Of a stretch of DNA of 64,000 nucleotides, positions 6,256 through 63,627 are shown one piece after another. The notes under the pieces were generated by a model, which saw only the letters and a list, made by a program, of their open reading frames with translations, was not told the DNA's origin and searched no databases. The translations under genes were made by a program, and so were the position numbers. Each line of letters starts with the position of its first letter. The stretch's first letter is position 1. The DNA comes from Pseudobutyrivibrio sp. MD2005. GTDB taxonomy: Bacteria; Bacillota; Clostridia; Lachnospirales; Lachnospiraceae. The stretch is taken from NCBI RefSeq assembly GCF_000621865.1, contig NZ_JHXE01000020.1, forward strand, positions 1 through 64,000, written 5' to 3'.

Positions 6256-6324
6256 ATATCCAACTATTCTTTTTCTATTATACTAAATTTAAGGCAATAT
6301 TCATTTCCTATAAAGAAAAAATCC

Positions 6325-6934
6325 GTTACCATTCACAGTCTGTTTTGTAGGTACGCCCTCAACAAAGGCTGTGGCCTCCAGTATACACATGGCGCATTGC
6401 AAGAATATTGCGTTTTTCTAATGGGCCATTTATGCATCTTTATTTACATGTGTCTTTTGCAGGCCTGTACAATTTTGAAAAAGGTTTTTAGATGGCGGAC
6501 ACAAAACATAATATAAAGTGTACTTCTCAGACTGAGGGGAACTTGGTTGATTTTGGAGCGAGCCTAGTAACATAAAAGCAGGTTTTGCAATATATAAGCA
6601 TGCGCTGCCATGGACGGCAGCGCAAGTGGTCACTTAAAACACGATGTTGAATGTGCCACGGTGATTATATATGCAAAACCTGCTTTGTCATGTTACTTAG
6701 CAAGCGGAATATGAAACCAAGTCCCCTCAGTTTGAGAAGTACATATAAAACTTAAGTGTCCGCCACCTAAAAAACATTTTTCAAAATGGTTCATTCCGCA
6801 ACAAGACACATGTACAATGCATAAATTTGGCCCATAAGAAAAACAGCAATATTCGCAAAATCACGCCATATGTATACTGGAGGCCACAGCAGGGGTGAGG
6901 GCGTCATAAATGAATGTCAACTGTGAATGGTAAC
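6325..6934. repeat. Giant hairpin repeat, copy 1 (610 nt)
   Basis: The whole interval is an imperfect palindrome. Perfect 15-bp terminal inverted repeats (6325-6339 and 6920-6934) are followed inward by about 280-nt arms that pair along most of their length, with fixed internal loops. The arms close at 6577-6596/6666-6687 (AGCAGGTTTTGC with its complement). The central 70 nt contain a GC-rich hairpin GCGCTGCC/GGCAGCGC (6602-6623). A second copy lies at 20595-21209. Copy differences are often compensatory. No convincing reading frame is present. It may be a structured RNA gene or a fold-back mobile element. Confidence 0.85.
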
Positions 6935-6940
6935 AAAAAT

Positions 6941-6971
6941 CCCAGTGGCTAGACTAATTCTAACCACTGGG
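6941..6971 (-). terminator. Terminator of the 120-residue protein gene
   Basis: CCCAGTGG-c-TAG and CTA-a-CCACTGGG form a stem. On the minus strand it is followed by a T run (ATTTTTG), and then the giant hairpin starts at once. The second giant hairpin is bordered in the same way. Confidence 0.85.
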
Positions 6972-6985
6972 ACAATATTTCTTAA

Positions 6986-7348
6986 TTACGAATATAACTT
7001 CTTTACGTTTCCCTCTGCAATATCAGCTTCTTTTATCTGAAAATCGCCATTGAGGAAAGCTTCAAGCTGACCATATGTATTAATAGCCTTACCATTTACA
7101 AGAATAATAAATGGCTTTTGGCCTTCTGCATTTAATGTCATTCTATAATCAACTCTATCAAGTGCGTACTCAATTCCCATCTCATAAGATGTAAAGTAGC
7201 TATGCGCATTTCCTAATGTATGATCTGATGTAATCCAATATTCCTCGACCAAATTAATATTTGGTTCTATTAAAGTCATCTTTACGAATTTTTCTTCACT
7301 TTCTTCACGTAATAATCTGTATTCTTTATTAAGTGTTGTAAGTTCCAT
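6986..7348 (-). CDS. Conserved-looking small protein, function unknown
   Basis: 120 residues, soluble, acidic, no signal peptide or motif that I recognise. It has an alternating pattern suggestive of a small alpha/beta fold (L-V-E-E-Y-W-I-T, F-I-I-L-V-N-G-K-A-I). The ribosome site AAGAGGTGAA precedes the ATG at 7348, and a strong terminator follows, so it looks like a genuine single-gene unit. Confidence 0.7.
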   Translation of the reverse strand: MELTTLNKEYRLLREESEEKFVKMTLIEPNINLVEEYWITSDHTLGNAHSYFTSYEMGIEYALDRVDYRMTLNAEGQKPFIILVNGKAINTYGQLEAFLNGDFQIKEADIAEGNVKKLYS

Positions 7349-20137: not shown

Positions 20138-20581
20138 ATGAGTAAAAAAGGTTTTATTGCAGAATTTAAAGAATTTATTTTACGCGGAAATGTAATGGAT
20201 ATGGCAGTCGGTGTTATCGTAGGTGGCGCTTTCACAGCCATCGTAACATCACTCAACGAAGATATCCTTACACCAATCTTAGGAATCTTTGGTGGCACCG
20301 ACTTTTCAGAACTCAAGGTTAAGCTTGGCTCAGGCGAAGCAGCCCCTGTTCTTACATACGGCAATTTCATCACAGCCATCATCAACTTCCTCATTACAGC
20401 ACTTGTAATCTTCTTAATTATCAAGGCTATAAACAGAGGTTCAGAAAGAGCAGCCGCATTATTAAAGCGCAACAAGGAAGAAGCCGAAGCTGCAGCTCCT
20501 ACCGAAAAAGACTGCCCATATTGCTTCAGCAAAATCCACATCAAGGCAACTCGTTGCCCACACTGCACAGCCCAGCTATAA
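20138..20581 (+). CDS. mscL: Large-conductance mechanosensitive channel with C-terminal zinc ribbon
   Basis: 147 residues. The first 95 residues are MscL (FILRGNVMDMAVGVIVGGAF pore helix, second helix ITALVIFLIIKAINRG). The pentameric channel opens under membrane tension to release solutes. The C-terminal tail carries two CxxC pairs (CPYC...CPHC) forming a probable zinc ribbon in place of the usual short helix bundle. GGGAGG precedes the ATG. The giant hairpin starts 13 bp after the stop and no separate terminator lies between. Confidence 0.95.
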   Translation: MSKKGFIAEFKEFILRGNVMDMAVGVIVGGAFTAIVTSLNEDILTPILGIFGGTDFSELKVKLGSGEAAPVLTYGNFITAIINFLITALVIFLIIKAINRGSERAAALLKRNKEEAEAAAPTEKDCPYCFSKIHIKATRCPHCTAQL

Positions 20582-20594
20582 AAGCCCCAAATAC

Positions 20595-21209
20595 TGTCCC
20601 CATTCACAGCTACTTTCGTACAGACGAGGCCCGCATCCACGCCGTAGCCGGCCTTATGCAGGGGCTTGCATTGCATGAATATTGCGTTTTTCTAATGGAC
20701 CATTTATGCATCTTTATTTACATGTGTCTTTTGCAGGCCTGTACAATTTTGAAAAAAGTTTTTGGGTGGCGGACACACAGCATAATATTATTTGTACTTC
20801 TTAGACTGAGGGGAACTTGGTTGATTTTGAAGTGCGCTTAGTAACATAAAAGCAGGTTTTGCAATATATAAGCATGCGCTGCCACGGACGGCAGCGCAAG
20901 TGGTCACTTAAAACACGATGTTGAATGTGCCACGGTGATTATATATGCAAAACCTGCTTTGTTATGTTACTTAGCAAACGTAATATGAAACCAAGTGCCC
21001 TCAGCCTGAGAAGTACATAAAAAACTTCAGTGTCCGCCACCTGAAAAACATTTTTCAAAATGGTTCATTCCGCAACAAGACACATGTGCGATGCATAAAT
21101 TTGGTCCATAAGAAAAACAGCAATATTCGCAAAATCGCAAGCCCCTGCATAAGGCCGGCTACGCCGTGGGTGCGGGCAGGCCACTACAATAAAACTGTGA
21201 ATGGGGACA
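20595..21209. repeat. Giant hairpin repeat, copy 2 (615 nt)
   Basis: Second copy of the element at 6325-6934. Terminal inverted repeats TGTCCCCATTCACAG (20595-20609) and CTGTGAATGGGGACA (21195-21209) are perfect. The central 100 nt differ from copy 1 at essentially one base. The subterminal stem (about 20635-20675 with 21140-21175) is unrelated in sequence to the equivalent stem of copy 1, yet it pairs over more than 30 bp. Both copies end next to the T run of a minus-strand terminator. This pattern points to selection for pairing or to arm-to-arm correction of a palindrome. Confidence 0.85.
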
Positions 21210-59914: not shown

Positions 59915-59972
59915 AGTCCGGTGGACACCTCTGCGCAGCAGAAGCACCGACCGAGCCGGCAGGCGAGACCTT
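59915..59972. repeat. Partial GC-rich repeat, copy 3
   Basis: The bases GTCCGGTGGACACC onward match the central part of the units at 206-332 and 364-490 for about 57 bp and stop at GCGAGACCT. The hairpin CTGCG-C-AGCAG differs from CTGCG-G-AGCAG by one base. The gap 59608-60031 otherwise contains AT-rich sequence with no gene seen. Confidence 0.7.
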
Positions 59973-62873: not shown

Positions 62874-63001
62874 AATTTCTCCCAAAGAAAATGGCGGGGA
62901 GTCCCCCCGCCGATTAGGTTGGACCTTGACATTTCTGCCAGCCCAAATGCTAATTAAATGATAACAGATTTGTACGTAAAGTCAAGACACGTAGTCTATT
63001 C

Positions 63002-63441: not shown

Positions 63442-63456
63442 ATTTCGTCCCGTCTC

Positions 63457-63544
63457 GATTGAAGTGCTCTTTAATGCAAAAATGAGGCCATCCAAATGGA
63501 TGACCTCATTTTCTGCATTAAAAGAGCGCGAGACGGGACTCGAA
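63457..63544. repeat. Right direct repeat of tRNA-Gly 3' end (att-like)
   Basis: Counterpart of 61224-61311, here joined to the complete tRNA-Gly gene. Holds the trailer hairpin (63465-63527). Just outside, GTCCCGTCTCG (63447-63457) complements tRNA bases 63529-63539, as at the first tRNA locus. Confidence 0.8.
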
Positions 63545-63597
63545 CCCGCGACCTCCACCTTGGCAAGGTGGCGCTCCACCAACTGAGCCACTCGCGC
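63525..63597 (-). tRNA. tRNA-Gly(GCC), second copy
   Basis: Identical to 608-680 in all 73 bases, anticodon GCC. The intact gene stands at the right border of the VapD/DUF3800 island. Confidence 0.97.
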
Positions 63598-63627
63598 AAA
63601 TTGCTGTTGTTCTCAACAACAATGGTT

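Follow-up and report, generated by a model that had tools for sequence, protein, structure and literature searches.

A long fold-back repeat of Pseudobutyrivibrio with a TwoAYGGAY core is probably a non-autonomous, MITE-like mobile element

We propose that the 610-nt hairpin at positions 6325 to 6934 of the window (the whole 64,000-nt stretch of Pseudobutyrivibrio sp. MD2005 DNA that was analyzed) is probably a non-autonomous fold-back element of the long-inverted-repeat, MITE-like kind, the arms of which are rewritten jointly by DNA-level copying. The unit has terminal inverted repeats (TIRs) and an 8-bp target duplication, is present in dozens of copies, occupies sites that are shared across species, carries an inner part that inverts, and has arms that are symmetric between the two strands. 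A fold-back mobile element was one of the readings offered by the initial annotation, and the terminal repeats, the 8-bp duplications, and the many copies support it.

The hairpin was said to fold back over almost its full length, and this is borne out by the minimum free energy (MFE) of copy 1, which was -319.3 kcal/mol compared to a shuffle mean of -154.5 (z -30.4, 20 shuffles), and by that of copy 2 (20595 to 21209, 615 nt), which was -345.5 (z -27.2 against shuffles). Copy 1 runs from TIR to TIR on the + strand, with the perfect 15-bp ends that had been described, GTTACCATTCACAGT at 6325 to 6339 (+ strand) and ACTGTGAATGGTAAC at 6920 to 6934 (- strand), and the 8-bp direct repeat at its flanks, AAAAATCC, is perfect, lying at 6317 to 6324 and 6935 to 6942 (8/8 match). 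The right-hand AAAAATCC continues into a hairpin, CCCAGTGGCTAGACTAATTCTAACCACTGGG, which by eye looks like the terminator for the leftward open reading frame (ORF) at 6986 to 7348. Copy 2 spans 20596 to 21208 (+ strand) when delimited by its fold and by its TIR variant GTCCCCATTCACAG; its GTCCCC...GGGGAC ends are present as reported, no target duplication is recognizable at its flanks, and it lies between the end of the ORF at 20138 to 20581, which from its sequence we take to be mscL-like, and a terminator-like hairpin. Both copies are in A-rich DNA, each adjoining a hairpin taken by eye for a terminator. The two share 300 nt at 94% identity (6394 to 6693 and 20668 to 20967), and the inner pair GGGCC/GGCCC of copy 1 does read GGACC/GGTCC in copy 2. 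The claim that both copies have identical internal loops held for the inner arms and failed for the outermost ~70 nt of the arms, which, loops included, are mostly unlike between the copies and self-complementary within each; in copy 1, the left subterminal internal loop and variable outer helix occupy approximately 6340 to 6394 (+ strand). Elsewhere in the window, two 162-nt stretches (528 to 689 and 63445 to 63606) that are 99% identical hold tRNA-Gly(GCC) genes at both window ends, a 56-nt G+C-rich repeat occurs three times (224 to 279, 382 to 437, and 59916 to 59971), and a DUF3800-XI RNA (RF02975) lies at 62896 to 62945 on the minus strand (50.7 bits).

The terminal repeat of the unit is GTTACCATTCACAG(T), and the ends can also be written as the pattern GTTAC(C/T)ATTCACAG. 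Younger-looking copies have GTTACCATTCACAGT at both ends, followed inward by two differing subterminal stretches and then by the helix, and this end has been lost from many other copies. The TIR pattern GTYACHATTCACAGT was found in 22 of the 29 genomes of the genus, and the reversed control gave no match. Ends were recognizable at 29 of 66 copies, taken as 10 or more matches out of 14 at each end, and five of these 29 (L001, which is copy 1, L005, L007, L009, and L079) have perfect 8-bp direct repeats, compared to 0 of 812 mismatched pairings; a further copy (L003) matches at 7 of 8 positions. Mean flank identity at a length of 8 was 0.56 compared to 0.31 in mismatched pairings, and the remaining lengths between 4 and 12 showed no comparable excess, so the signal is specific to 8. 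Conserved TIRs, in the younger-looking copies, and a target duplication of fixed length are both features expected of a MITE.

No IS256-type transposase was matched in the element's own genome, and a non-exhaustive search for an autonomous element joining these ends to a transposase found none, which counts against our reading. An IS4-family element of one relative (L251 and L252 in G003), with a 451-aa open frame carrying DDE_Tnp_1, lies inside an GTTACTATTCACAGT terminus; we rejected it as the autonomous partner because it has ends of its own, CAATGTCATT, and had inserted into the TIR, the insertion in L251 being flanked by a 9-bp duplication, ATTCACAGT. The ends of the fold-back element are not the CAATGTCATT of the genus' IS4-family elements, which speaks against derivation from them. 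An 80-bp element with the same ends (L253) has a perfect 8-bp duplication. The same terminal repeat, GTTACTATTCACAGT, also bounds an element of ~192 bp (L301 to L326; for example, L258 at 1044 to 1235), which has matches in 19 of 29 genomes, a multibranched fold, a perfect 8-bp duplication in 0 of 23 copies, and no Rfam match in the four copies searched (L255, L258, L260, and L265). By eye, GGTATAACC-type motif repeats were seen near the same terminal repeat in L049 and L073.

In its own genome, the family gave 49 TwoAYGGAY matches when all 91 candidates were scored, and a DNA search gave 88, with the palindrome counted on both strands. A wider search, in which stricter filters and the scoring of no more than 38 candidates in each genome make the copy counts lower bounds (at least the number given), found the family in 26 of the 28 other genomes of the genus, the exceptions being G010 and G026, and in two of eight other genera of the family; it was not found in 24 further genomes of the order or in 14 control genomes (0/14). 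One core subtype was found in 29 stretches of named contigs, 27 of them from Pseudobutyrivibrio, one from a Lachnospiraceae bin, and one from Butyrivibrio fibrisolvens 16/4. The unit of a second genus (G032) mostly measures ~235 to 300 nt, with AACTTCC/GGAAGTT ends on many copies, and in another (G036), TwoAYGGAY cores occur in head-to-head pairs ~240 to 300 nt apart (C47:139778-140356 and C33:53805-54433). We computed fold-back ends at 39 core-bearing loci of the own genome and at 29 loci in relatives; 11 of the 49 own matches fall outside this set. The fold-back was shorter than 560 nt at 15 of these 68 loci (6 own, 9 relatives); the full hairpin is thus not kept everywhere, a point against our reading.

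In 26 of the 28 other genomes of the genus we located the gene that borders copy 1 on the right. No core lay beside it in any of the 24 loci inspected, two of which have less than 100 nt there, and the flanks are too diverged for the junction to be read. For copy 2, 25 loci offered 1500 nt of right-hand sequence, in which the best match was a 16-nt chance match (two loci), and diverged flanks again made the junction unreadable. With copy 1, many relatives have a different left neighbor, and the flanks have diverged; these core-free orthologous loci are therefore not strict empty sites. Gene context was called by a crude rule (open frames of at least 70 aa) that picks up spurious frames: it gave 7 convergent, 25 tandem, and 5 divergent contexts in the own genome (37 of 39 copies) and 27, 31, and 6, respectively, in relatives (64 of 68 copies). 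The rule miscalls copy 2 as tandem owing to a frame on the minus strand that overlies the rightward ORF at 20138 to 20581, and the ORF list suggests a convergent context.

At 10 sites, 21 pairs of copies have both flanks alike across species (flank identity, ~70 to 99%). Relative to these flanks, 10 of the 21 pairs, drawn from 6 of the 10 sites, have cores in opposite orientations, and in the alignments of L095/L188 and L080/L081 the inner segment has been swapped cleanly between the arms with the outer loops unmoved. A clean inner swap is the outcome expected of recombination between inverted repeats, and a core that inverts is less likely to have a fixed cis-regulatory role.

The sites shared across species also bear on how the arms change. 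Counting by script, with both arms of both members aligned, we found 33 mirrored columns in the outer zone of orthologous pairs compared to 2.9 expected under independence (8 of the 11 planned pairs); in these counts L095 enters two pairs, the zones take in some coding flank, and the alignment close to indels is uncertain. One pair, L097/L099, contributes 16 (11 transitions, 5 transversions), about half of the total, followed by L190/L192 with 10, L178/L181 with 4, and L088/L095 with 3; the other four of the eight pairs have none (L183/L184, L095/L188, L080/L081, and L166/L180, the last of which is nearly uninformative, its alignment being almost all coding flank). This unevenness weighs against our reading. 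In 30-nt bins taken outward from the core, L097/L099 percent identity falls to 27, 33, and 60 on the left and to 33, 47, and 67 on the right, with 73 to 97 nearer the core, 73 to 100 further out, and 43 and 35 in the truncated last bins. L190/L192 dips to 63 and 46, its right flank also having bins of 67 and 77, and the lowest bins of L183/L184, last bins aside, are 87 and 78. It is unusual for arms at a shared site to change fast and yet remain complementary. Simple purifying selection on pairing fits poorly with an outer helix that changes faster than its flank, and conserved internal loops argue against complete homogenization of the arms. Arm-to-arm correction that mimics covariation, raised by the initial annotation as an alternative, fits these data best, given mirrored change in half of the orthologous pairs and a fast zone at one site; since the internal loops persist, any such correction leaves some mismatches.

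We considered that pairing might instead be selected in the DNA, for extrusion of a hairpin or cruciform that serves as a protein target, in transposition, or as a gene-end structure, with mutations in one arm compensated singly in the other. Strand symmetry of the arms, which a DNA hairpin selected for its pairing predicts as well as joint copying does, is consistent with this, as are long residence at shared sites and the retention of internal loops while sequence changes. Compensation one change at a time, however, predicts many one-sided intermediates and a pace slower than neutral, and the paired outer columns of L097/L099 hold 16 mirrored changes among 21 left-arm and 19 right-arm changes, in the most diverged zone of the locus. 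We regard selection of this kind as a tentative alternative, somewhat unlikely. Wholesale exchange of the outer arms with other genomic copies by ectopic recombination, so that a mirrored difference would mark the replacement of one copy by another, has in its favor the mosaic arms of copy 1 and the replacement of the core between L088 and L095 at one site. In L097/L099, though, it would need two arm segments from one donor while the flanks, inner arms, and core stayed in place, and we consider it unlikely.

The remaining alternative is that the whole unit is a large structured RNA of ~600 nt in which pairing is selected and covariation is genuine RNA compensation. The initial annotation had claimed an undescribed large RNA; the centre is already in Rfam as TwoAYGGAY (RF01731), and the arms lack a strand-specific pairing signature. 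The 162-nt match lies mid-hairpin on the + strand in both copies, at 6551 to 6712 (69.3 bits) and 20825 to 20986 (75.9 bits), above the covariance-model threshold of 43 bits, and in a search of the two copies no other family reached its threshold. An RNA of the + strand under selection should tolerate G.U more than A.C. Isolated arm mismatches gave G.U:A.C ratios of 107:100 for 33 own copies and 75:70 for 20 copies of relatives, and the + strand had the lower MFE in 12 of the 33 and 12 of the 20 (24/53); this per-copy test omitted the loci at which the fold-back is below 560 nt, 6 of them own and 9 in relatives. Over 85 copies the arms held 298 G.U (G.T in DNA) to 307 A.C, counts that come from related copies and are not independent events, and strand-specific wobble was absent from the arm helices. 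Gene strand was tried as the cause of this symmetry and rejected: on the supposed transcribed strand of 47 tandem copies, with crude gene calls, the ratio was 166:150, no clear excess of G.U. The ~192-bp element, of which 22 of 23 copies fold better on one strand and in which G.U:A.C is 32:14, indicates that strand bias is detectable where present, and it serves as a contrast and not as a proven RNA control.

A wobble bias that leans toward RNA was seen in the core only, not in the arms. Pairs in 100 distinct cores comprised 3648 Watson-Crick, 92 G.U, 41 A.C, and 175 other, and a single loop-closing pair supplies 20 of the 92 G.U; from these sequences, the 92:41 ratio may be read as a weak hint of an RNA role for the core. 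Among the copies that the crude rule calls tandem, 36 have the core opposite the genes and 20 have it on the same strand as the genes, a possible strand preference. TwoAYGGAY was catalogued as an RNA candidate by Weinberg et al. in 2010 (PMC2864571), where, in the available text, the table grades it as probably RNA and probably not cis-regulatory; the Rfam type given for RF01731 is Cis-reg. Excerpts of two later papers propose it as a CsrA-binding sRNA (PMC4333381) and lengthen its helix by covarying pairs (PMC7657543). The strong fold of both copies and a loop and helix architecture kept despite sequence change also favor a large RNA, but with G.U equal to A.C in the arms even on the supposed transcribed strand, strands that fold about equally, core consensus energies nearly the same on both (-36.4 and -35.5), inversion of the core at 6 of 10 sites, and an L097/L099 outer helix that outpaced its flank where purifying selection on pairing should slow change, we consider it quite improbable, not supported for the arms and possible for the core.

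We therefore return to a non-autonomous fold-back element with jointly rewritten arms. A cut-and-paste transposase acting in trans would move it, and after insertion, replication or repair of the extruded hairpin would copy short stretches from one arm to the other by template switching, through which both arms would change together and could drift fast; recombination between the matching arms would flip the inner part. Template switching that makes and mends stems has published precedent in the available portion of PMC8794818. The survival of internal loops that frequent copying should remove weighs against this scheme. So does the scarcity of host sequence copied from the flank past the element's end into the arms: of 19 own copies, one alone (L006) gave a significant signal, on which count we rejected general capture of flank. 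The TwoAYGGAY core may have a separate function as RNA or as a folded single strand. A bolder conception, which we hold to be possible but doubtful, is of a bacterial hairpin whose two arms are rewritten in single steps and stay hypervariable yet self-complementary, a mirrored diversity generator on an invertible mobile element with an RNA-catalogued core. More generally, strong covariation has in this case probably arisen with no selection on an RNA. This is of consequence for RNA screens that rely on covariation, and the comparison of wobble asymmetry offers such screens a cheap check.

Eukaryotic foldback transposons have very long inverted terminal repeats and a scant unique middle. The present unit shares both features with them and differs in its bacterial host and in a structured core with an Rfam entry; Tm1 (PMC3169594) is one such eukaryotic transposon. 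Like the bacterial MITEs and small mobile repeats covered in the available sections of PMC2229807, it has TIRs, a target duplication, and many dispersed copies; unlike them, it is complementary through nearly the whole 610 nt, its inner part inverts, and its arms vary between copies while matching within each. REPIN/REP palindromes, as presented in the portion of PMC3116915 at hand, are likewise dispersed in a bacterial genome, but our unit is far longer and has an 8-bp target duplication. Among the listed literature matches on foldback or MITE elements in bacteria or Butyrivibrio, the unit was not described, and the available passages of PMC2864571, PMC4333381, PMC7657543, PMC11701678, and PMC11661157 describe no mobile element for TwoAYGGAY. 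The unit resembles that family in the central 162 nt of both copies, which score well over the family threshold, and departs from it in that the Rfam model has 168 positions and the unit here is at least 610 nt with transposon ends, and from the RNA reading of the family in that the arms have no RNA-sense strand bias; a catalogued RNA candidate is thereby recast, at least in Pseudobutyrivibrio, as the probable centre of a mobile DNA element.
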